A DNA stretch of 42,831 bases from Bryobacterales bacterium (lineage in GTDB: Bacteria; Acidobacteriota; Terriglobia; Bryobacterales; Bryobacteraceae), in NCBI GenBank assembly GCA_947467185.1, contig CANIHR010000010.1, positions 1 through 42,831 of the forward strand. Reading direction: 5' to 3'. Position 1 is the first letter of the stretch, and the number at the start of each line of letters is the position of its first letter. Below the pieces are notes generated by a model. That model was not told where the DNA came from. It did no database searches and saw only the letters and a program-made list of their open reading frames with translations. This document shows positions 8,717-19,504 of this stretch, one piece after another. Position numbers and translations under genes: made by a program.

Positions 8717-9742
8717 CTACGGTTCGCGGCGCTTCAGGGTCGGACGGTCTTCCGAATCGGTCTTCGGCGCTTTTTCGTCGCCGTTCGAGTCGATCTGGCC
8801 GTTCGGGTTGCGGCGGAGGGTTGGGCGTCCGGCGTCCTTGGTGTCATCCACCTTGCGGCGGCTGTGCATAGCGAGGACGCGGGCCTTCACGTCGTTGAAT
8901 TCACTGGTGTTGACGACGTATTCCGGCTTTTCTTTGAGGTACTTCTGGATCACCTGCTGGGACGCCTTGATGCGGTCGTCTGTCGGCGGGTGGGACGAAA
9001 AGAGCTTCGACATGGTGCCGGGCTTGCGCTTTTCCAGCGCCTGCACCTTTTCGAAGAAGTCGACGAAGGAACCGGGGTCGTAACCGGCCTTGTAGATGTA
9101 TTCAAGGCCCAGCATGTCGGCTTCCGCTTCAAAACCACGGGTGAACTTCAGGAAGCCGAGCGGAACCAGGATACCCATGCCCTGATAGATCGCATAGCCC
9201 GTGATGCCACCCATAAAGATGAGGGGCAGGGTGGCGTAAGAAACCAACTGGCCGCGGGAAGCCTGGCGCGTGCCGTGACGGGCGGCCACGTGTGCGATTT
9301 CGTGTGCCATGACGCCAGCCATCTCCGCTTCGTTTTCGGCGTTGATCAGCACGCCGGTCTGCACGAAGAAAAAGCCGCCTGGGAGGGCGAACGCGTTGAT
9401 GTCTTCGGCGTCGATGACCTTAATAGTGAATGGAACCTTAGCGTCGGAGTTGCGAACCAGATTCTGCCCCACGCGGTTGACATATTCGGCAATGATGGGG
9501 TCGTCAACGATCTTCGCCTGACGTTCCACTTCCTGGGCCATCTGCTTGCCCATTCCAATCTCTTTCTCGATCGAGTAGAGATTGAGGCCTTTGCCGACAT
9601 CGCGGTTGCCGATTTCGTCGGGGTTGGTCTTCTTCTTATCGGCCAGCGCCGGGACCACCATCGCCTGCTGTGTGAGGAAAAATGCCGTTGTCAGCGCCAG
9701 AGCGCTGCGCAGAAGCGAGTTTGGTTTGAAAATCAATTTCAT
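8717..9742 (-). CDS. Exported M48-family zinc metalloprotease
   Basis: 341 residues with an N-terminal export signal (hydrophobic segment about 11-34). The M48 zinc motif HEIAH is at residues 147-151 in VMAHEIAHVAARHG, and the third ligand region is FEAEADMLGLEY near 204-214. FALPGGFFFVQTGVL is also typical of periplasmic M48 proteases such as BepA and LoiP, which degrade misassembled envelope proteins. Unlike BepA there is no TPR tail; instead the last 60 residues are charged and low in complexity (RRNPNGQIDSNGDEK). It is monocistronic: 117 bases lie upstream and a terminator lies directly downstream. Confidence 0.92.
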   Translation of the reverse strand: MKLIFKPNSLLRSALALTTAFFLTQQAMVVPALADKKKTNPDEIGNRDVGKGLNLYSIEKEIGMGKQMAQEVERQAKIVDDPIIAEYVNRVGQNLVRNSDAKVPFTIKVIDAEDINAFALPGGFFFVQTGVLINAENEAEMAGVMAHEIAHVAARHGTRQASRGQLVSYATLPLIFMGGITGYAIYQGMGILVPLGFLKFTRGFEAEADMLGLEYIYKAGYDPGSFVDFFEKVQALEKRKPGTMSKLFSSHPPTDDRIKASQQVIQKYLKEKPEYVVNTSEFNDVKARVLAMHSRRKVDDTKDAGRPTLRRNPNGQIDSNGDEKAPKTDSEDRPTLKRREP

Positions 9743-9859
9743 TCGGAGGGTGACTCCTTCAAAGGCCTTCGAGCTTATTCTTCCGAGTATAAGCTGTTTT
9801 TCCCGGGGAAGTGTTCTCTGTTACCGACGCAGTTCACACCCGTGCGGTTTCAGCCCGGA

Positions 9860-10867
9860 CTACATGCGGATGCAAACTTTTCCGAAGTGTGCCCCGCTTT
9901 CCTGATAGCGCATGGCGGCGACGGGGTCGTCAAAACCGAAAACGCGGTCGATGACGGGGCGGAGCTGTGCCGCAGAGATGGCCTGGTTCATCTGTTCGAA
10001 CATCTCGCGGGAACCAACGTAGATGCCCTGGACCTTCACGGACTTCAGGAAAATAGGCCGGGGATCGACTTCGCCCTGGCCCGTCAGGACGCCGATGAGC
10101 GCAATGTGGCCGCCGCGGCGAACGGCTTTGATAGATGACGGCAGGGTGCCGGCACCGCCGACTTCGATGATGTGGTCGGCCCCGACGCCGCCGGTGAGGT
10201 CGCGGACGGGTTTATCCCAGTCGGGCGTGGTTTTGTAGTTGATGCCGTGGGTGGCGCCCATGGCGCGGACGCGGTCGAGCTTCGCTTCACTGGAGGAGGT
10301 GACAAAAACCTGGGCGCCTGCGAGGGTGGCGAACTGGAGGGCGAAGATGGAGACGCCGCCCGTGCCCTGGACGACGACGCTTTCGCCTGGTTTCAGGTTG
10401 CCCGAGCGGAAAAGGGCGTTCCAGGCGGTGAGGGCCGCGCACGGCAGGGTGGCCGCCTCTTCAAAGGAGAGATGGGCGGGGGCGTGGACGACGCCGTTGG
10501 CAGAGAGGCAGACCTGTTCTGCCAGCATTCCGTCGATAGCGCCACCCATGGCGGACGCGGCGCTTTCGTCGGTGGGGCCACCTGCTACCCAGTTCTGGAA
10601 AAAGGTGCCGCAGACGCGATCGCCGGGCTGGAAACGGGTGACACCGGGGCCGATGGCGACGATTTCACCGGCTCCATCGGAAAGGGGGGTAATCGGGGGC
10701 TTTACCGCGCGGCCATACCCGCCTTTGGCAAGGACCAGGTCACGGAAATTCAAAGAGCAGGCCCCGACCTGGACCAGGACCTGGCCGGGGCCGGGCTCCA
10801 ACTGCGGAACATCAACAAAACGCAGGTTTTCATAGCCAAAGCCTTCAATAAAACGCCATGCTTTCAC
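9860..10867 (-). CDS. Zinc-free MDR oxidoreductase (quinone oxidoreductase-like)
   Basis: A 335-residue medium-chain dehydrogenase/reductase. The N-terminal GroES-like domain has SLNFRDLVLAKGGYG, where zinc-dependent members would have their catalytic cysteine and structural cysteine cluster; these are absent. The nucleotide-binding motif is VVVQGTGGVSIFALQFA. This pattern fits NAD(P)H-dependent quinone oxidoreductases or enoyl reductases rather than alcohol dehydrogenases. The start is a GTG at 10867, supported by an AGGAG six bases upstream. It diverges from the ispH operon across an 87-base spacer. A third MDR protein so close to the two inside the hopanoid operon may be coincidence; the substrate is unknown. 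Confidence 0.87.
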   Translation of the reverse strand: MKAWRFIEGFGYENLRFVDVPQLEPGPGQVLVQVGACSLNFRDLVLAKGGYGRAVKPPITPLSDGAGEIVAIGPGVTRFQPGDRVCGTFFQNWVAGGPTDESAASAMGGAIDGMLAEQVCLSANGVVHAPAHLSFEEAATLPCAALTAWNALFRSGNLKPGESVVVQGTGGVSIFALQFATLAGAQVFVTSSSEAKLDRVRAMGATHGINYKTTPDWDKPVRDLTGGVGADHIIEVGGAGTLPSSIKAVRRGGHIALIGVLTGQGEVDPRPIFLKSVKVQGIYVGSREMFEQMNQAISAAQLRPVIDRVFGFDDPVAAMRYQESGAHFGKVCIRM

Positions 10868-10916: not shown

Positions 10917-10925
10917 TTCCGATGA

Positions 10926-10931
10926 TATACT
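10926..10931 (+). promoter_or_regulatory. Possible -10 element of the ispH-hopanoid operon
   Basis: TATACT differs from the TATAAT consensus at one base. Transcription would begin near 10938, giving a leader of about 17 bases before the ATG at 10955. No good -35 hexamer is seen at 16-18 bases upstream, so activation by a regulator or a different sigma factor would be needed. The position argues against the alternative upstream ispH start at 10922. Confidence 0.35.
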
Positions 10932-10954
10932 TGGACGACGGTCCCTCCTTCCCT

Positions 10955-11947
10955 ATGCCCTTAAAAACAATCGCTCCGAATACCACCGGCGAAAAGAAAA
11001 TCCTGCTTCTGAAGCCGCGCGGGTTCTGTGCGGGCGTGGTTCGGGCCATCGACGTCGTGAAAATCGCTTTGGGCGCGTATGGCGCTCCCATCTATGTCCG
11101 CAAAGAAATTGTGCATAACAAGCACGTTGTGGACGAGTTGCGGGAAATGGGCGCGGTGTTCGTGGAAGAACTCCAGGAAGTCCCCGACAACGGCCGGGCG
11201 ATCTTCAGTGCTCACGGTGTGTCTCCCGAGGTTCGGCGACAGGGTAAAGAGCGCGGATTGCAGATCATCGACGCGACCTGCCCTCTGGTGACCAAGGTCC
11301 ACCTGGAAGCGGTGAAGTTTGCGCGGGAGGGCTTCTCGATGGTCCTGATCGGGCATAAGAACCACGACGAAGTAATCGGCACGCTGGGCGAAGCGCCCGA
11401 AAAGATGGTGCTCGTGGAGTCGGTGGAAGATGTAGACGCACTCGAAGTGCCGGATCCGGCGCGGATTGCCTACCTGACGCAGACGACGCTGAGCCTGGAC
11501 GAAACCAAACACATTGTGGCGCGTCTGGAAGAACGGTTCCCGTTGATTCAGAGTCCAAAGTCGCAGGATATTTGCTACGCCACGGAAAACCGCCAGACGG
11601 CAGTGAAGGGTGTGGCGCAACACTGCGATGTGCTGCTGGTGGTTGGTTCGGAGAACAGTTCGAATTCGCGCCGGTTGGTGGAAGTGGGGCACAACTACGG
11701 CGTGCAGTCGTTCCTGGTGAATGACTGGGCCGGGGTGGATCAGTCGTGGCTTGCAGGTGCCACCACGGTGGGTGTAACGGCGGGAGCTTCGGCGCCGGAA
11801 CATCTGGTGCAGCAGATTGTTGAGTCGCTGCAGGGCATTGGCTACTCCAATCTGGAGGAAGTGGAGATGATCGAGGAAGACGTCCGATTCTCCCTGCCGC
11901 CCGAATTGGGCGCGGTGGCCGCACAATTCGTCAGTATCACGCGTTAA
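10955..11947 (+). CDS. ispH: 4-hydroxy-3-methylbut-2-enyl diphosphate reductase IspH
   Basis: IspH carries out the last MEP-pathway step, reducing HMBPP to IPP and DMAPP with a [4Fe-4S] cluster. The three cluster cysteines are seen at C25 (KPRGFCAGVVRAI), C109 (DATCPLVTKVH) and C207 (SQDICYATENRQ). The GHKNHDEVIGTLGE stretch carries the active-site glutamate (E139), and TQTTLS is also conserved. The start at 10955 gives 330 residues, close to the usual length; ATG at 10922 would add 11 residues but lies upstream of a likely -10 element. The gene heads the operon, 12 bases before shc, so C5 precursor supply and hopanoid synthesis would be transcribed together. Confidence 0.96.
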   Translation: MPLKTIAPNTTGEKKILLLKPRGFCAGVVRAIDVVKIALGAYGAPIYVRKEIVHNKHVVDELREMGAVFVEELQEVPDNGRAIFSAHGVSPEVRRQGKERGLQIIDATCPLVTKVHLEAVKFAREGFSMVLIGHKNHDEVIGTLGEAPEKMVLVESVEDVDALEVPDPARIAYLTQTTLSLDETKHIVARLEERFPLIQSPKSQDICYATENRQTAVKGVAQHCDVLLVVGSENSSNSRRLVEVGHNYGVQSFLVNDWAGVDQSWLAGATTVGVTAGASAPEHLVQQIVESLQGIGYSNLEEVEMIEEDVRFSLPPELGAVAAQFVSITR

Positions 11948-11959
11948 TCATTTCTGGAG

Positions 11960-13876
11960 ATGATGTCGACTTTACAGGTTAGAGAGACGGTTGTTGCGGG
12001 AGCGCGGCTTGCCTCCTCTCGCGCCGCCGAGCATCTGCTCGGTCTGCAACATGACGACGGCTACTGGTGTGCGCTGCTGACGGCGGACACCACGCTGGAA
12101 TCGGACTTTATTTTGTTGCAGTTGTGGCTACATGCGCCGGTGGCCGGTGTGTGGAATCCGCCGAGCCGGGCGCAGATTCAGCGTGCGGTGGACCGTATCC
12201 TCTCCAGGCAACTCCCTGACGGCGGCTTCAATATCTATGTGGGTGGCCCGAGCGAGATCAGTGCTTCGGTAAAGGCTTATTTTGCGCTGAAGCTGGCGGG
12301 AGCCCCGGAAGACCGGCTGGCGATGCTGCGGGAGCGGATCATTGCTCTGGGCGGCATTCAGGCCGCGAACAGCTATACCAAGGTCAACCTGAGTCTGTTC
12401 GGGCTGTATCCGCGTGAAGGTACGCCGAGTATTCCGCCGGAAATTCTGTTGTTGCCGGGCGGGTTGCTCTACCAGATGTCTTCGTGGACGCGGGCGATTG
12501 TAGTTTCACTTGCCATTGTCCATGCGCATGATCCGCAGCGGCCGGTGCCGGCGGGCTTTAGCCTGGAAGAGATTTTCATTCCGGGACGGAGCGTGACGTT
12601 TGAGTCGGATGACTCCTGGCTGAGCTGGCGGAAGACGTTTATCCAGTCGGACCGCATCTTCAAGCTCTGGGAAAAGTATGGCCATGCGCGCATCCGGAAG
12701 GCGGCGCTGCGCAAGTGCGAGCACTGGATGCTGGAGCGCATGAAGCACTCCCAGGGGCTGGGCGCGATTTATCCCCCGATGCAGTACTCCATCATGGCGA
12801 TGGACGTTCTGGGGTATCCAGCGAACAATCCTCTGCGAGTGGAAGCAATCCGGCAGTTCGATCACCTGATGGTGGATGACGGTAAGGAATTGTTCTTCCA
12901 GCCCTGTTTTTCGCCGGTCTGGGATACAGCAATTGGCGGATATGCACTGGGTGAGGCTGGTTACGGTGACGGGACTGCGCTTCAAAAGGCCACCGACTGG
13001 CTGCTGGCGCGCGAGATCCGGCGCAAGGGTGACTGGTCAGTCAAGCGGCCGAATACGGAACCTTCGGGCTGGGCGTTTGAATTCGAAAACGACTGGTATC
13101 CGGATATCGACGACACCGCGATGGTGATGCTGGCTTTCAAACACATGAAGGCAAGCAGTTCGTCGGCCCAGGAAGCAACGCGGAAGCGTGCGATCGACTG
13201 GCTGCTGGCGATGCAGTCGTCCGATGGCGGCTGGGCCGCGTTTGATGTGGACAATAACTGGGAGATTCTGACCCATGTCCCGTTTGCCGACCATAACGCG
13301 ATGCTGGACCCGACATGCGCCGATATTACCGGGCGGACGCTGGAAGCTTTGGCCGCCAATGGTTTTGATCGAAATCACCCGGCGTGTAAACGCGCCATCG
13401 ATTACCTGTTGAAGACGCAACTGGCGGATGGCAGTTGGTATGGCCGCTGGGGCGTCGCATTCCTCTACGGCACCTGTTTCGCGCTGCGCGGCTTGCAGGC
13501 GATGGGTGAGGATGACCACGAATCGCACATCCAGCGTGCCAACGAGTGGATTCGAGCTTTGCAGAATTCCGACGGCGGCTGGGGCGAAAGCTGCGCCAGC
13601 TACGACAACAACACGTATACCGGTACGGCGAGCACCCCGTCGCAGACCGCCTGGGCGCTGATGGGCCTGCTGGCGGGTGGCGACACGTACAGTTCCAGCG
13701 TGCAGCATGCCGTCGACTACCTGGTCTCAACCCAGAAGCCGGATGGCTCCTGGGATGAAGATCTGGCCACGGGCACGGGTTTTCCGCGCGTGTTCTACCT
13801 CAACTATCACTACTACCGGATTTACTTCCCGCTGATCGCGCTTTCGGCATTTCTCCACGCGCAGGCCAACCGGTAG
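11960..13876 (+). CDS. shc: Squalene-hopene cyclase
   Basis: Shc is a monotopic membrane enzyme that cyclises squalene to hopene and hopanol. The 638-residue protein has the catalytic acid motif DIDD at residues 382-385 (WYPDIDDTAMVML), followed by repeated QW motifs: QSSDGGWAAF, QLADGSWYGRWG, QNSDGGWGES and QKPDGSWDE. Length matches the family. Two adjacent ATG codons open the frame at 11960 and 11963, with a TGGAG just upstream; the second has the more usual spacing. It lies between ispH and hpnA, four bases from the latter. Confidence 0.97.
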   Translation: MMSTLQVRETVVAGARLASSRAAEHLLGLQHDDGYWCALLTADTTLESDFILLQLWLHAPVAGVWNPPSRAQIQRAVDRILSRQLPDGGFNIYVGGPSEISASVKAYFALKLAGAPEDRLAMLRERIIALGGIQAANSYTKVNLSLFGLYPREGTPSIPPEILLLPGGLLYQMSSWTRAIVVSLAIVHAHDPQRPVPAGFSLEEIFIPGRSVTFESDDSWLSWRKTFIQSDRIFKLWEKYGHARIRKAALRKCEHWMLERMKHSQGLGAIYPPMQYSIMAMDVLGYPANNPLRVEAIRQFDHLMVDDGKELFFQPCFSPVWDTAIGGYALGEAGYGDGTALQKATDWLLAREIRRKGDWSVKRPNTEPSGWAFEFENDWYPDIDDTAMVMLAFKHMKASSSSAQEATRKRAIDWLLAMQSSDGGWAAFDVDNNWEILTHVPFADHNAMLDPTCADITGRTLEALAANGFDRNHPACKRAIDYLLKTQLADGSWYGRWGVAFLYGTCFALRGLQAMGEDDHESHIQRANEWIRALQNSDGGWGESCASYDNNTYTGTASTPSQTAWALMGLLAGGDTYSSSVQHAVDYLVSTQKPDGSWDEDLATGTGFPRVFYLNYHYYRIYFPLIALSAFLHAQANR

Positions 13877-13880
13877 CCCT

Positions 13881-14864
13881 TTGAAACCTGCGTTAGTTAC
13901 CGGTGCAACCGGCTTTGTGGGATGGCATGTCGCCCGGCTTTTGCTGGAGCGTGGCTATTCTGTGCGCGCACTGGTGCGTGGCAGGGGGCGAGTGCCGGAA
14001 CTGGACGTGGAAGAGTACGAGGGCGACCTGCGGGACCCGGAGTCCTTGCTGCGTGCGGCGGATGGGTGTGGCCAGGTGTTCCATGTGGCGGCGGATTACC
14101 GGCTATGGTCGAAGAATCCGGAAGACATGTACCGGTCGAATGTGGGCGGGACGCGGAACATGCTGGCGGCGGCGCAGGCGGCCGGTGTGGAGCGGGTGGT
14201 CTATACCAGCACCGTGGGCTGCATCGGGATTCCGGCGGCGGATGAAAATGGCCCCGGCATCGGGGATGAGAATACGCCGGTTTCGGAAGATATGATGTCC
14301 GGGACCTATAAGAGGTCCAAGTACTTCGCCGAAAAGGTGGCGCTGGAGTTTGCCGAAGCCGGCCTGCCGGTGGTGATTGTGAATCCCACCGCGCCGATGG
14401 GTGACCACGACTTTAAGCCGACGCCGACCGGCGCGATCGTCCGCGATTTTCTGCGGGGTGCGATGCCGGCCTACATCGATACCGGGCTCAATGTGGTGAA
14501 CGTGCGGGACGTTGCGCTGGGGCATCTGCTGGCTTGTGAGCGCGGTATTCCGGGGCAGCGGTACATTCTGGGCTGTGAAAACATGACGCTGGGGCAGATT
14601 CTGCGTGAACTGGGGCAGATTACCGGCCGCCGGGCACCCCGGGTGAAGCTGCCGTATGCGGTGGCATGGGCCGCCGGCATGGTGACGACCGGGTTCGCAC
14701 ATCTGACTGGGATCCCGCCGCGAGCGCCGATGGAAGCTGTGCGAATGGCGAAGAAAAAGATGTGGGTCTCGCATGCCAAAGCGCAGGATCAGCTTGGTTT
14801 TGAGCCGCAATCGCCGGTGACCGCCTTTATCGATGCCATCAACTGGTTTGAGGGGCGGAGGTAA
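13881..14864 (+). CDS. hpnA: Hopanoid-associated sugar epimerase HpnA
   Basis: A 327-residue extended short-chain dehydrogenase. The Rossmann motif GATGFVGWHVARLLLERGY is at the N-terminus, and the catalytic YxxxK is in TYKRSKYFAEKVAL. Phrases such as FHVAADYRLWSKNPEDMYRSN and VNPTAPMGDHDFKPTPTG are characteristic of HpnA. The precise substrate of HpnA is not established; it is found with hopanoid genes and is thought to act on side-chain modification. The start codon is TTG at 13881, four bases after the shc stop, with no strong ribosome site, so reinitiation or coupling is likely. Its stop shares a base with the hpnG start. Confidence 0.93.
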   Translation: MKPALVTGATGFVGWHVARLLLERGYSVRALVRGRGRVPELDVEEYEGDLRDPESLLRAADGCGQVFHVAADYRLWSKNPEDMYRSNVGGTRNMLAAAQAAGVERVVYTSTVGCIGIPAADENGPGIGDENTPVSEDMMSGTYKRSKYFAEKVALEFAEAGLPVVIVNPTAPMGDHDFKPTPTGAIVRDFLRGAMPAYIDTGLNVVNVRDVALGHLLACERGIPGQRYILGCENMTLGQILRELGQITGRRAPRVKLPYAVAWAAGMVTTGFAHLTGIPPRAPMEAVRMAKKKMWVSHAKAQDQLGFEPQSPVTAFIDAINWFEGRR

Positions 14865-15556
14865 TGGGTCCGGTGGTGTTTGTGGCTGCCGATGCGCGCG
14901 AATGTGGTCCCTGGGTGGCACGGTGGGAAGCCGTGACGAAACCGGAGCTGCCGGTCCATTGGGCGCGGGCTGGAAAATTTCGGGGCCGGGACGTACTGGC
15001 GGTCGCGAATGGCGCAGGTCCGGCACGGGCGAGTCTGGCCGTCGAGGCAGTGGAGAAGTTGCGACCAGCGGCTCTGGTGAGCGTGGGAACCTGCGGCGCA
15101 CTTGATCCGACCCTGCAGATTGGCGATGTTTTTGTGCCGACCGAAGTTCGGGGTGGTGGTCAGACCTGGGCGTTGGCTTCGCTTTCCGGCCCGGCAGCGA
15201 AAACCGGCCCGTTGATTTCTGTCACCCGGATTGCCGCGTCAGCATCTGAAAAGAGTCAATTGCGGTCCACCGGTGCCCTGGCGGTGGAGATGGAAGCGGC
15301 CGGGGTTGCCTGTGCAAGCGGGCGTCTGAATGTGCCATTCTATTGTGTTCGTGTCGTGAGCGACCTGGCTGAGCAGGATTTCGCAAATGACTTTAATAAA
15401 GTAATCATGTCCGACGGCCGTTTCAACATCCCCGCTCTCTTGTTGAACGCGTTCGCGAGACCCCTGAGTCGCATTCCGGAGCTGATTTCCCTGGCCCAAC
15501 GGACGGCGCTCGCATCTAAAAATCTGGGAGATTTTCTTGCCCTCTGTAGTTTCTGA
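14864..15556 (+). CDS. hpnG: Hopanoid-associated phosphorylase HpnG
   Basis: A 230-residue nucleoside-phosphorylase-fold protein. HpnG is known to remove adenine from adenosylhopane, giving phosphoribohopane on the way to C35 bacteriohopanepolyols. Visible motifs are VGTCGALDPTLQIGDVFVP in the phosphate-binding region and ALAVEMEAAGVACAS, the MEAAG element that contacts the ribose. GGAGG precedes the ATG at very short spacing, and the start shares a base with the hpnA stop. Its substrate is made by the radical SAM enzyme HpnH, which is not in this window and must be encoded elsewhere if the pathway is complete. Confidence 0.93.
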   Translation: MGPVVFVAADARECGPWVARWEAVTKPELPVHWARAGKFRGRDVLAVANGAGPARASLAVEAVEKLRPAALVSVGTCGALDPTLQIGDVFVPTEVRGGGQTWALASLSGPAAKTGPLISVTRIAASASEKSQLRSTGALAVEMEAAGVACASGRLNVPFYCVRVVSDLAEQDFANDFNKVIMSDGRFNIPALLLNAFARPLSRIPELISLAQRTALASKNLGDFLALCSF

Positions 15557-16661
15557 AGCAGTCGTTTCCAATACAGCCCTGCCCGCCAGCATGAAAGCGG
15601 CGGTGTACAAGGGAAATCACCTGGTGGCGGTCGATGATGTCACGACCCCGGAGATTGGCGCGGGCGAGATCCTGATCCGCGTGGAAGCCTGTGGTGTGTG
15701 CCACACCGATCTGAAGAAGATTGAGTATGATCTGCTGACGCCTCCCCGGATTTACGGGCACGAGACGGCCGGTGTGGTGGCAGCGGTGGGCAGCGCGGTG
15801 ACGAAGTATATGCCGGGCGACCGCGTGATTGTCTTCCACCATATTCCCTGCGGCAAGTGCTTTTATTGCGACCGGAAACTGTATGCGCAGTGCCCTGTCT
15901 ACAAGAAGGTGGGCGTGACGGCGGGGTTTGAGCCGGCGGGCGGCGGCTTTGCGCAGTATGTGCGGGTAATGGACTGGATCGTGGACGCGGGTGTGGAAAA
16001 GATCCCCGACGGCGTTTCCTTCGATACGGCGGCGTTTGTGGAGCCGGTGAACACCTGCGTGAAGGCCGTGGAGCAGTGCGATCCGCAGCCCGGCGACGTG
16101 GTGCTGGTGCAGGGACAGGGTTCGATTGGCCTGATCTTCACGATGCTGCTGAAGCTGAAGGGCTGCACGATCGTCACGTCAGACACGATTGCGAAGCGGC
16201 TGGAATTGTCGCGGGAATGCGGGGCGGAGTACGCGCTGGATCCCCGCGAGACAGATGTGGCGGCGAAGCTGCGGGAACTGACGGAAGGTCGCGGCGCCGA
16301 TATGGTGATTGTGGCGACGGCGGTAAAAGGGCTGGTGGAGCAGGCAATTGCATGCACCCGACCTGGTGCGAAAATCATGTTATTCGCGCAAACCTCGGAT
16401 AAAGAACGAATTGAACTGTCGGGCGCGAGCATCTGTGTGGGTGAACGGCAGTTGCTGGGTTCCTACAGCGCGTCGGTCGATATCCAGAAGTCTGCAGCGG
16501 ACCTGGTGTTCAGCGGGAAGCTTCCCGTACACCTGCTCGTTTCGCACCGTGTGCCTCTTGATAAGATTGAGCTTGCATTCCGTCTCGCAACCCATCCCGG
16601 CGAATTTCCGGAGGAGAATCCTCTGAAGGTGATCGTGCGTCCGCAGGAGTTCACAGTTTGA
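15537..16661 (+). CDS. Zinc-dependent MDR dehydrogenase 1 within the hopanoid operon
   Basis: A 374-residue zinc-dependent dehydrogenase of the sorbitol/threonine dehydrogenase branch. Catalytic-zinc ligands are C55 (CGVCHTD) and H75-E76 (YGHE), with the glutamate of FVEPVNTCVKAVE. The structural-zinc cluster is C105, C108, C111 and C119 (CGKCFYC spacing). The nucleotide-binding loop is VQGQGSIGL. I chose the TTG at 15537, which overlaps hpnG by 20 bases, because GGGAG lies six bases upstream; an ATG at 15591 has no ribosome site. Its position between hpnG and hpnC suggests oxidation or reduction of a polyol or aldose on the hopanoid side chain. This is inference. Confidence 0.9.
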   Translation: MPSVVSEAVVSNTALPASMKAAVYKGNHLVAVDDVTTPEIGAGEILIRVEACGVCHTDLKKIEYDLLTPPRIYGHETAGVVAAVGSAVTKYMPGDRVIVFHHIPCGKCFYCDRKLYAQCPVYKKVGVTAGFEPAGGGFAQYVRVMDWIVDAGVEKIPDGVSFDTAAFVEPVNTCVKAVEQCDPQPGDVVLVQGQGSIGLIFTMLLKLKGCTIVTSDTIAKRLELSRECGAEYALDPRETDVAAKLRELTEGRGADMVIVATAVKGLVEQAIACTRPGAKIMLFAQTSDKERIELSGASICVGERQLLGSYSASVDIQKSAADLVFSGKLPVHLLVSHRVPLDKIELAFRLATHPGEFPEENPLKVIVRPQEFTV

Positions 16662-17713
16662 ACGAATCACGGTCGGCTGAAACAATGCTGGCGGCGGTGC
16701 TCTACGGCAAAGAGCACGTTCAGGTAGAACGCATTCCGATCCCCACGGTGGGGCCAGACGATATCCTCGTCCGCGTGCGTGCGGCGCTGACGTGCGGCAC
16801 CGACATTAAAGTTTTCCTGCGCGGGTATCACGCGCGGATGATCGTTCCTCCCGCCCTGTTTGGCCATGAACTGGCGGGCGATGTGGTGGCGGTGGGTGAG
16901 CGCGTGAAGGGTTTTGAGATTGGGCAGCGGATTGTCGCGGCGAACTCGGCTCCCTGTCTGCGGTGCTTCTATTGCCGCCGTGGCCGCGTGAATCTCTGCG
17001 AAGATCTGCTGTTCAATAACGGTGCGTATGCGGAGTTTATTCGCATTCCATCCCGAATTGTCCGTCTCAACACGTACGTGATTCCGCCGCATCTGGATTA
17101 TCGGGATGCTGCCCTGGCCGAGCCGCTGGCTTGTGTGGTGAAGGGCGTGGAAGATACGGAAATGCGCCCGGGCGACACGGTTGTCGTTATCGGTGTGGGT
17201 CCGATTGGCTCTATGTTCATTCGCCTGGCCAAGATGCGCGGTGCGCGCGTGATCGCGGTTGGCCGTCGTCGTCTGAAGGAAGAAAAAGCTCTGCGGCTGG
17301 GTGCGGATCGTTTTGTGGCGACCGAAGATACCCAGAACCCGGTTGCCACGGTTCGCGAACTGACCGGTGGCCATGGCGCGGATATCGTGTTTGAAGCGGT
17401 GGGTAAGCCCGAGACCTGGAACTGGTCGGTGGAAATGCTGCGCCGCGGCGGTACGGTGAACTTCTTTGGCGGTCCTCCCACGGGAACCCGCGTGGAACTC
17501 GACACCAACCTGCTGCATTACTCGGAAATCACCTGCAAGGCGAGCTTCCACCACACTCCGGCGACCATGCGCGAAGCGCTCGATGTCATCGCGAGCGGTG
17601 GTATTACGGCGCGTGACTTTGTGGATGCCGAAGAGCCTCTCCAGAACATTTCGGCCGTGCTGTTCCGCCTGGCCGAAGGCGATCGTACTCTGAAGACCGC
17701 CATCATCCCGTAG
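16658..17713 (+). CDS. Zinc-dependent MDR dehydrogenase 2 within the hopanoid operon
   Basis: A 351-residue relative of the preceding gene with all zinc ligands: C46 (LTCGTD), H70-E71 (FGHE), the glutamate of LAEPLACVVKGVE, and the structural cluster C100, C103, C106 and C114. The dinucleotide loop is VIGVGPIGSMFIRLA. The TTG start at 16658 overlaps the previous stop (TTGA) and has AGGAG eight bases upstream; ATG at 16685 is an alternative. The gene pair probably arose by duplication, though the two have diverged widely. They may act on successive carbons or as a heteromer. A function in C35 hopanoid side-chain reduction is a hypothesis from context only. Confidence 0.9.
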   Translation: MNESRSAETMLAAVLYGKEHVQVERIPIPTVGPDDILVRVRAALTCGTDIKVFLRGYHARMIVPPALFGHELAGDVVAVGERVKGFEIGQRIVAANSAPCLRCFYCRRGRVNLCEDLLFNNGAYAEFIRIPSRIVRLNTYVIPPHLDYRDAALAEPLACVVKGVEDTEMRPGDTVVVIGVGPIGSMFIRLAKMRGARVIAVGRRRLKEEKALRLGADRFVATEDTQNPVATVRELTGGHGADIVFEAVGKPETWNWSVEMLRRGGTVNFFGGPPTGTRVELDTNLLHYSEITCKASFHHTPATMREALDVIASGGITARDFVDAEEPLQNISAVLFRLAEGDRTLKTAIIP

Positions 17714-17714
17714 G

Positions 17715-18638
17715 ATGTCTGCTCCTCTCGTTCCGGCTGACTTCGTCCGCGATGCGGAGGCGATGGGTCGCGTCTGGGGCCTGACCGAAGCCGAGCAATA
17801 CACGCACTGGCTGGCGACCGCCCACTACGAGAATTTCCACGTCGTCAGCTTCCTGTTGCCGAAGCATTTGCATCAGGATTTCTACAACGTCTATTCGTAT
17901 TGCCGCTGGGCGGACGATCTGGGTGATGAGCTGGGGGATACGGCGGAGAGTCTGCGGCTGCTGGCGTGGTGGCGCACGGAACTGGACCGCATGTATGAGG
18001 GCGGGGAAGCGATGCATCCGGTGTTTGTGGCACTGGCCGGGACGGCGAAGAAGTATGGCATCCCGAAGCAGCCTTTCGACGATCTGATTACCGCGTTTAT
18101 TCAGGACCAGACCGTGACCCGGTATGACGACTGGGCTGGAGTTCTGGGGTATTGCGTGAATTCGGCGAACCCTGTGGGGCGACTGGTGCTGTATCTGTGC
18201 GGGTATTCCGATTCCGAGCGGCAGCGGCTATCGGATGCGACCTGCACCGGGCTACAACTGGCGAATTTCTGGCAGGATGTGACGGTGGACCAGCATAAGG
18301 ACCGTGTGTATCTGCCGCTCGACCTGCTGGCGCGCCACAACTATACGGTGGAAGAGATGTTCGAGCACAAGTTCGATGGTCGGTTCCGGGCAGTGATGCA
18401 GGAAGCGGTGGAATACGCGCGGGGGTTCTTCCTGACGGGTCTGCCGCTGGTGAACATGGTGAACCGGCGCTTGTCGCTGGATCTGGATTTGTTCAGCCGG
18501 GGCGGGATGCTGGTGCTCGACAAAATTGAGCAACAGGGCTACGACGTGCTCTCGCGGCGTCCGAAGGTGACGAAGGGCGAGCGGGTGCGGTTGCTGATCA
18601 CATCGCTGGTGCGGACGGCGTTTGCGAAGGCCGCATGA
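17715..18638 (+). CDS. hpnC: Squalene-synthase-like HpnC (hydroxysqualene synthase)
   Basis: 307 residues of the trans-isoprenyl diphosphate head-to-head synthase family. HpnC converts presqualene diphosphate, made by HpnD, to hydroxysqualene. The first aspartate-rich motif is D67-D68-x-x-D71 in YCRWADDLGDELGD, and the second is in NFWQDVTVDQHKDRVYLP. The start, SFLLPKHLHQDFYNVY, is characteristic of HpnC rather than HpnD. It begins one base after the dehydrogenase stop and overlaps hpnD by four bases. Length is normal. Confidence 0.95.
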   Translation: MSAPLVPADFVRDAEAMGRVWGLTEAEQYTHWLATAHYENFHVVSFLLPKHLHQDFYNVYSYCRWADDLGDELGDTAESLRLLAWWRTELDRMYEGGEAMHPVFVALAGTAKKYGIPKQPFDDLITAFIQDQTVTRYDDWAGVLGYCVNSANPVGRLVLYLCGYSDSERQRLSDATCTGLQLANFWQDVTVDQHKDRVYLPLDLLARHNYTVEEMFEHKFDGRFRAVMQEAVEYARGFFLTGLPLVNMVNRRLSLDLDLFSRGGMLVLDKIEQQGYDVLSRRPKVTKGERVRLLITSLVRTAFAKAA

Positions 18639-19504
18639 CGGATTTGGAAGCCAGTTACGCACATTGCCGGGCGGTCGCGAAGTCGCGGGCCAAGAACTTC
18701 TATTACTCATTTGTGCTGCTGGACGATGACCGGCGGAATGCTATGTGCGCGATGTACGCGTTCATGCGTTATTGCGACGACCTGAGCGACGAAACCGGGG
18801 CCACCCGGGCTGCCATGGAGCAGTGGCGCGGGGCTTTGGATGAAGCTCTGGCGGGGAAGCCTCCGGCGGGGCCGATCTGGCCGGCCTTTCTGGATTCGGT
18901 GGCGCGGTACAAGATCCCGCATCAGTACTTCCACGACATGATCGATGGCGTGGCGTCGGATCTGGAGCCGGTGCGGATTCAGACGTTTGATGAGCTGTAT
19001 AAGTACTGCTATCGCGTGGCGTCGGTGGTGGGCCTGACCACGATCCATATCTTTGGGTTTTCGGGTGATGAGGCTCTGGTCCTGGCCGAGAAGTGTGGGA
19101 TTGCGTTCCAGTTGACCAACATCCTGCGGGACGTGAAGGAAGATGCCGAACTGGGTCGCCAGTATCTGCCGCAGGAAGACCTGGACCGGTTTGGTGTGAC
19201 CGCGGCGGAGCTTGCGGCGGGGTTACGCACCGAGCGGTTTGTCAGCCTGATGGAGTTTGAGATTGAGCGTGCGGAAGGGTATTACAAAGAGTCCGCGCCA
19301 CTTTTGGCGATGACGGCGCCGGAATCACAACCGTCCCTGTGGGCGATGATTGCGATTTATCACGGCTTGCTGGGCAAGGTGGCGGAGTGTCCGTCGGATG
19401 TACTGGTGCGGCGGGTGTCGGTGCCGGTTGCCGAGAAGCTTTGGATCGTTTTACGGGCCGGGGTTCCTGCGATGTCGCGCCACGCGATGGGCGCACGGAA
19501 GTAG
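18635..19504 (+). CDS. hpnD: Presqualene diphosphate synthase HpnD
   Basis: 289 residues. HpnD joins two farnesyl diphosphates to presqualene diphosphate. Motifs are KNFYYSFVLLDDDRRNAMCA near the start, aspartates D48, D49 and D52 in MRYCDDLSDE, and the second motif NILRDVKEDAELGRQYLP. The length is normal, so the C-terminal 47 residues, which overlap a convergent gene on the minus strand, are probably genuine. It is the last gene of the operon. In many bacteria hpnE follows; here it does not, and no terminator is visible after the stop. Confidence 0.95.
   Translation: MTDLEASYAHCRAVAKSRAKNFYYSFVLLDDDRRNAMCAMYAFMRYCDDLSDETGATRAAMEQWRGALDEALAGKPPAGPIWPAFLDSVARYKIPHQYFHDMIDGVASDLEPVRIQTFDELYKYCYRVASVVGLTTIHIFGFSGDEALVLAEKCGIAFQLTNILRDVKEDAELGRQYLPQEDLDRFGVTAAELAAGLRTERFVSLMEFEIERAEGYYKESAPLLAMTAPESQPSLWAMIAIYHGLLGKVAECPSDVLVRRVSVPVAEKLWIVLRAGVPAMSRHAMGARK

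Follow-up and report, generated by a model that had tools for sequence, protein, structure and literature searches.

The stretch of DNA analysed here (the window; 42,831 nucleotides, contig CANIHR010000010.1 of assembly GCA_947467185.1) comes from a member of the Bryobacterales, which we take to be subdivision 3 of the Acidobacteriota. It carries a hopanoid operon in which two genes for zinc-dependent medium-chain dehydrogenases/reductases (MDR), here called MDR1 and MDR2, are located between hpnG and hpnC; all genes listed in Table 1, from ispH to hpnD, are co-directional. The original prediction had proposed that one or both of the encoded enzymes reduce ribosylhopane to bacteriohopanetetrol (BHT). 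The MDR pair was found to be a conserved part of the acidobacterial hopanoid cluster, so that the earlier observation is right and in fact stronger than had been claimed. The functional reading seems plausible and probably incomplete; the two genes are good candidates for the missing enzyme of side-chain completion.

Table 1. Genes of the hopanoid locus in the window, with the basis of their naming
Gene	Product	Position	Strand	Basis
ispH (LytB)		10922..11947	+	domain match; start is a guess
shc (hpnF)	squalene-hopene cyclase	11960..13876	+	TIGR01507, 655.8 bits (cut-off 431.1)
hpnA	hopanoid-associated short-chain dehydrogenase/reductase ('sugar epimerase')	13881..14864	+	TIGR03466, 433.4 bits (cut-off 367.65)
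hpnG	adenosylhopane nucleosidase/phosphorylase	14864..15556	+	TIGR03468 best family, 149.8 bits, below cut-off 187.1; context
MDR1	zinc MDR of polyol-dehydrogenase type, NAD-type signature	15537..16661	+	Pfam domains, alignment; ug1 by position (see text)
MDR2	zinc MDR of polyol-dehydrogenase type, NADP-type signature	16658..17713	+	Pfam domains, alignment; ug2 by position (see text)
hpnC		17715..18638	+	TIGR03464, 332.6 bits (cut-off 250.45)
hpnD		18635..19504	+	TIGR03465 best family, 259.2 bits, below cut-off 278.6

Zinc sites and cofactor signatures of the two dehydrogenases

That two complete zinc dehydrogenases separate hpnG from hpnC was confirmed by the open reading frames (ORFs), by the domains ADH_N and ADH_zinc_N, which are above the Pfam gathering score in both proteins, and by the conservation of the zinc ligands. 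Alignments were made of 146 rows for MDR1 and 118 rows for MDR2, the query included and one protein occurring twice. The ligand positions of MDR1 (C37, H57, E58 and E151, together with C87, C90, C93 and C101) are identical in all rows except two that are gapped at E151, and those of MDR2 (C37, H61, E62 and E146, together with C91, C94, C97 and C105) in 117 of the 118 rows each. The four cysteines of the structural zinc are thus present in 146/146 rows of MDR1 and, position by position, in 117/118 rows of MDR2. The division of the aligned positions into catalytic and structural ligands follows the usual pattern of the family, and a glutamate as third catalytic ligand is the pattern of sorbitol and threonine dehydrogenases.

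Both proteins have the GxGxxG Rossmann motif and the MDR fold. Their AlphaFold2 models reached a mean confidence (pLDDT) of 81.7 for MDR1 and 92.2 for MDR2 and match solved MDR structures, and the 50 Foldseek matches listed for each gave template-modelling (TM) scores of 0.78-0.90 by query length. The structures listed for MDR2 include the ketose reductase 1e3j and ECK1772 of E. coli (5vm2); plain alcohol dehydrogenases rank equally high among the listed matches and, for MDR1, first. MDR1 and MDR2 share the fold, the zinc sites and the glutamate ligand with sorbitol dehydrogenase, 1e3j and threonine dehydrogenase, but stand apart from this branch in their identity of 22-32% to the listed solved structures and in reaching the cut-off of none of the listed NCBIfam equivalogs (IolM, threonine dehydrogenase Tdh and others). 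The best NCBIfam match of both is the scyllo-inosose 3-dehydrogenase IolM (NF041097), with scores of 163.9 and 173.5 bits against a cut-off of 450. From their sequences both are classified as complete zinc MDRs of the polyol-dehydrogenase type.

The two enzymes differ where beta2, the second strand of the Rossmann fold, ends: the residue there is Asp in 142 and Glu in 2 of the 144 ungapped rows of MDR1, whereas in MDR2 it is Gly, Val or Ala in 116/118 rows, followed by Arg or Lys in 110/118. An acidic residue at this place we take as the sign of an NAD-type site and the combination of Gly/Val/Ala with Arg/Lys as that of an NADP-type site, and the signatures then predict opposite cofactors, NAD for MDR1 and NADP for MDR2. 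An NAD(P)H site, as a ribosylhopane reductase should have, is present in the form of these signatures. The cofactor split is new here: the consulted parts of the related papers make no mention of it.

Linkage to the hopanoid genes across the Acidobacteriota

The best 80 of 521 MDR1 relatives in genome_contigs, referred to below as the named loci, are close relatives of each other and not independent. They carry Acidobacteriota-type titles, bar one that is evidently wrong, and the closest are titled Acidobacteriia, Terriglobia, Bryobacterales or Solibacter; MDR1 may nevertheless also stand beside hpn genes in other phyla. The deviating record (L147), titled as a Bordetella parapertussis metagenome-assembled genome, bears an acidobacterial hopanoid cluster and encodes the same MDR proteins as genome G179 of the window's family, so its title looks wrong. 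The conservation next to hpnG that had been proposed as a check on the prediction was observed in almost all of these loci. The gene hpnG lies immediately before MDR1 in 74/75 named loci with enough upstream sequence (in the exception, L185, it is 0.4 kb further away), MDR2 follows MDR1 in 71/71 with enough downstream sequence, and hpnC or hpnD comes next in all 70 that reach further.

The reported start/stop overlaps hold for hpnG/MDR1 (20 nt) and MDR1/MDR2 (4 nt), but MDR2 and hpnC are 1 nt apart. The larger overlap depends on the TTG at 15537 as the start of MDR1 (374 residues), which has an internal ATG at 15591; MDR2 (351 residues) likewise begins with a TTG, at 16658, and has an internal ATG at 16685. 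In the 76 named loci that were usable for a test of the reading frame (the other 4 lack a usable hpnG/MDR1 pair), the spacing between the stop of hpnG and the ATG of MDR1 varies widely between 4 and 91 nt, and is 573 nt in the outlier L185. Yet it equals 1 modulo 3 in 75/76, which argues that insertions and deletions have preserved a frame opening inside the end of hpnG. In 69 of the 76 loci an in-frame start codon precedes the end of hpnG by 10-25 nt, and in 7 there is none. The conserved frame supports the start at 15537 and, with it, the predicted coupling of MDR1 to the translation of hpnG. By the same test the frame of MDR2 is kept in just 47/71 loci, and its start (16658 or 16685) is therefore less sure.

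MDR1 orthologues occur in 65 of the 396 genomes of a larger sample of the phylum. An examination of all 65 contexts showed that 61 are near hpn genes: 48 have hpnG at no more than 1 kb, 58 have hpnA at no more than 2 kb and 36 have MDR2 at no more than 0.4 kb from MDR1. In family f2, which belongs to the window's class and probably represents subdivision 1, MDR1 adjoins hpnG in 44/44 genomes and MDR2 adjoins MDR1 in 15/44. In the 29 genomes with a split cluster, MDR2 directly precedes hpnC-hpnD in all nine looked at. Thus, when the cluster is split MDR1 stays with hpnG and MDR2 with hpnC, an observation that is new here.

The linkage with hpnG is found in none of the 17 orthologues from families f28 and f38/f84. 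The order in f28 (13 genomes) is hpnA-MDR1-MDR2, followed by hpnD in 11 and by hpnC in 1; in the remaining genome, G203, no hpn gene was detected after MDR2 on a short contig. The idea that f28 makes hopanoids without hpnG was dropped on finding that the four first-found f28 hits are 34-44% identical to the nucleosidases located after hpnD in G258 and G290. Three of these four were scanned and matched best to futalosine hydrolase or methylthioadenosine nucleosidase, below every cut-off, and a tree of HpnG-type proteins left the f28 nucleosidases unplaced. We read f28 as having a divergent HpnG, though not with certainty. Four large proteins beside the nucleosidases of f31 and f28 were considered as HpnN and rejected, as they do not match HpnN.

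All counts of gene presence that follow were made in one sample of 149 Acidobacteriota genomes; the squalene-hopene cyclase (SHC) was sought in these and not in the genomes added to reach 396. With thresholds of at least 330 bits for MDR1 (next best 229), more than 380 bits for MDR2 and E 1e-50 for HpnI, we found MDR1 in 21 genomes, MDR2 in the same 21 and in G121, SHC in 38, HpnH in 37 and HpnI in 32, including 27 that have SHC. HpnE was matched in 44 genomes and exceeds its cut-off in 41. HpnA passes its cut-off in 36 and HpnJ in 21, a split copy of HpnJ being present in G093. Matches to HpnG occur in 71/149 genomes; many are weak or partial and probably represent other nucleosidases, and the NCBIfam cut-off of 187.1 bits is reached in 0/149. 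Acidobacterial HpnG is evidently so divergent that annotation with this model will miss it. The name of the window's hpnG, although its score is below cut-off as well, is supported by the gene context.

MDR1 is present in 21/38 genomes with SHC versus 0/111 without, and in 20/37 with HpnH versus 1/112 without, the single case (G103) being SHC-positive. All five families with MDR1 are among the 12 with SHC, for which the chance is about 1e-4 with 63 families, 63 being the highest family code among those listed for the sample. HpnI is present in all 21 MDR1 genomes. The six SHC genomes that have HpnI and lack MDR1 are G007, G028 and four from f31 that carry distant relatives. G007 has SHC and hpnH and gave no match to HpnG, MDR1, MDR2 or HpnE. 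We rejected a natural loss of these genes, since no squalene-synthase-type gene is found at all and the contig stops 2.4 kb past hpnH, which makes an assembly gap likelier; G007 was kept in the counts and no inference was drawn from it. Two genomes of the same class, G265 and G359, gave no MDR1 match in the 396-genome sample. In G028 a stop codon divides hpnH between two ORFs (L208:4942-5946), which reflects either a sequencing error or a recent loss.

Possible roles in side-chain biosynthesis

In hopanoid side-chain synthesis HpnH adds adenosine to diploptene and HpnG removes the adenine (PMC12583986, cited, like PMC5462960 below, from excerpts). According to the same 2025 source the enzyme that converts ribosylhopane to BHT 'has not yet been established', and alphaproteobacterial hpn clusters have no obvious extra candidate genes nearby. 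The accessible parts of the open-access papers that mention ribosylhopane name no gene for its reduction, in line with the original statement that none is firmly assigned. The claim of an undescribed function is half right. The association with the hopanoid cluster is partly in print, with no function assigned in the excerpts: Sinninghe Damste et al. (2017, PMC5462960) placed ug1 behind hpnA-hpnG and ug2, which encodes a zinc alcohol dehydrogenase, ahead of hpnC, an arrangement matched by the split seen in f2. From these positions we infer that MDR1 is ug1 and MDR2 is ug2. The excerpts say that ug2, with a product of about 350 residues, frequently bears the annotation zinc alcohol dehydrogenase, leave the product of ug1 unstated and link neither to ribosylhopane reduction, for which HpnA is suspected instead.

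The best explanation of the data is that MDR1 and MDR2 form a co-inherited pair that one part of the Acidobacteriota has taken up into its hopanoid operon, for redox chemistry on the ribose-derived C35 side chain. In a general sense, the two quite probably act on the side chain or the head group of hopanoids. More specifically, at least one of them may be the reductase that forms BHT, the likeliest single step and a reading to which we assign a probability of roughly 0.4, with substrate and direction deduced from context. The product of HpnG, ribosylhopane, would be reduced in its open-chain form with the aldehyde at C-35, zinc polarising the carbonyl and NAD(P)H donating the hydride. A zinc polyol dehydrogenase fits this chemistry, and the linkage as well as the restriction of MDR1 to those of the 149 sampled genomes that have SHC are in line with it. 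The position directly after hpnG would favour MDR1 as the reductase, and the NADPH-type site MDR2. Hopanes are much-used bacterial molecular fossils, and BHT is a common precursor; with a narrow, genetically linked candidate pair and some members of the group in culture, the ribosylhopane question becomes testable. If true, this role would explain two genes left unknown in acidobacterial hopanoid clusters in 2017 (PMC5462960).

Several points weigh against a reductase. A single reduction needs one enzyme, and the keeping of two calls for further explanation; given the opposite cofactor signs, one of them may oxidise. Moreover, the enzyme adjoining hpnG is the NAD-type one, whereas the cell-free reduction of ribosylhopane by Bodlenner in 2015 reportedly used NADPH. 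Among the 37 genomes with hpnH, 17 (including G007) have no MDR1 orthologue, and MDR1, if a reductase, is therefore not the general one. It follows the glycosyltransferase HpnI more closely than HpnH, being present in 21/27 SHC genomes with and 0/11 without HpnI (Fisher 1e-5 uncorrected for relatedness; by family 0.027, which is weak and confounded by descent). In none of the 13 f28 genomes does hpnG lie at 1 kb or less from MDR1, even though hpnD is followed by an HpnG-type nucleosidase in two of them. In four genomes of f38/f84 the 9.7-15 kb examined contain the pair and no hpn gene; in G061, one of the four, hpnA, hpnG, hpnH and shc are together on a separate contig from the pair. G121 has an MDR2 of 52% identity and a distant pair and has no squalene-synthase-type gene, which indicates that MDR2 is not hopanoid-specific. 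Two genomes guessed to be Chloracidobacterium, G087 and G113, carry just distant MDR relatives that are mutually unlinked, and Chloracidobacterium thermophilum produces BHT (PMC5462960). Finally, the excerpts of that paper are inconsistent on ug2 in subdivision 3, which is absent from the cluster in section 13 and present in all members of subdivisions 1 and 3 in section 16.

The correlation with HpnI, which adds a sugar to BHT, is what one would expect if the pair acted downstream of BHT or on composite BHT. MDR1 would then oxidise a hydroxyl of the side chain or sugar with NAD+ and MDR2 would re-reduce it with NADPH, resulting in an inversion or in a keto intermediate for a head group that requires HpnI. 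The opposite cofactor signatures speak for this scheme, as does the presence of hpnI and hpnJ and absence of hpnK in strains of subdivisions 1 and 3 (PMC5462960). All strains of these subdivisions that were tested gave C32 hopanol, derived from tetrafunctionalised bacteriohopanepolyols, by a method that cannot separate BHT from its cyclitol ether (PMC5462960). Nevertheless, the hpn cluster of G028 includes hpnI and hpnJ, yet neither MDR1 nor MDR2 was found in that genome at the thresholds used. In the four sampled f28 genomes and in G061 the pair occurs together with HpnI but with no HpnJ match, and the correlation is confounded by descent. We regard this scheme as unlikely, though it comes nearest to the reductase reading. 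A particular form of it, for which there is rather little chance, is that oxidation by MDR1 and reduction by MDR2 constitute a module that inverts or rearranges a hydroxyl of the C35 side chain or sugar in HpnI-bearing Acidobacteriota, which would yield bacteriohopanepolyols with a stereochemistry or head group undescribed in the phylum.

HpnA could itself reduce ribosylhopane, as suspected in PMC5462960, with the MDRs as accessory enzymes. It is over cut-off exclusively in SHC-positive genomes (36/38), which fits the hopanoid makers better than MDR1 does, and it is encoded within 2 kb of MDR1 in 58/65 contexts. On the other hand, hpnA is reportedly not essential for BHT in Burkholderia cenocepacia, for which there is some evidence, and BHT producers such as Rhodopseudomonas are without it (both PMC5462960). 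This role of HpnA appears improbable. Still less is to be said for a function of MDR2 in squalene synthesis, with MDR1 alone serving the side chain. The attachment of a separated MDR2 to hpnC-hpnD in f2 points in that direction, but HpnC, HpnD and HpnE are described as enough for squalene (PMC5462960), four sampled f28 genomes have MDR2 without an HpnE match, hpnC is rare in the f28 clusters, and some MDR2 relatives are located among sugar genes. Chance neighbourhood, or a general polyol metabolism riding in a housekeeping operon, is suggested by pairs away from hpn genes in the examined stretches of f31, f46, f38/f84, G121 and G072, and is very improbable given that the linkage in 61/65 contexts has persisted through splitting and reshuffling of the cluster and that the hpnG/MDR1 overlap is conserved in frame.

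Relatives outside the operon and other observations

Beyond the Acidobacteriota, both MDRs served as queries against plasmid records and solved structures, and MDR1 alone against genome_contigs. In a quick tree MDR2 falls into a clade of 29 rows (SH-aLRT 100) and MDR1 into another, of 20 rows (99). Seven rows of the MDR2 clade fall outside the subclade of the hpn-linked ones, and five of these have a neighbouring partner on the MDR1 side (support 84), the sole trace of an hpn gene in their vicinity being a 21-bit HpnG match in G072. A pair of this kind thus seems older than its position in the operon.

The genomic context of some relatives concerns sugars. The best plasmid relative of MDR2, WP_242323970.1 of Rhodococcus opacus (48% identity over 97%), is in a sugar locus rather than a hopanoid cluster: it adjoins an FGGY kinase, a DeoR regulator and a class II aldolase, and no hopanoid gene is annotated in 19 kb. 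On a Rubrobacter plasmid, genes similar to MDR1 (34.5%) and MDR2 (37.5%) lie among FGGY kinases, a transketolase, a dihydroxyacetone kinase and RpiB. The two plasmid contexts, likewise new here, are a selection out of 105 and 146 records with matches. The MDR2 relative of G121, a genome with no SHC or HpnH match, has a class II aldolase next to it and a HAD hydrolase nearby; the other stand-alone pairs are beside genes for oligopeptide transport, efflux or prephenate dehydratase and are uninformative. The sugar-gene settings suggest a polyol or sugar as substrate, and the hopanoid side chain is such a compound.

Other contigs of the window's genome carry hpnH, hpnE, hpnI and hpnJ. HpnI and HpnJ each have two matches over cut-off, one of each being adjacent (C5:40294-43607, C88:10484-11584, C114:11782-13188). 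A further MDR relative, with 163 bits to MDR2, is encoded about 2.7 kb from hpnH (G000:C8:42269-43300 = L219:10270-11301). Within the window, the ORF of ispH opens at 10172 and its domain begins around residue 270, where the ATG at 10922 is located. The ORF at 8864-10138 (+) was rejected as a member of the operon; it has no Pfam or NCBIfam match and overlies ORFs on the opposite strand, one of which matches quinone-reductase models below cut-off. Similar ORFs upstream in three named loci may merely reflect related DNA. Scans of the window for promoters and terminators gave nothing above chance. In the f46 genome G148, hpnG is directly followed by a gene for a 328-residue protein without Pfam or NCBIfam match (L118:12575-13561) and then by one of the pyridoxal phosphate-dependent decarboxylase type, which are possibly hopanoid genes hitherto unknown.

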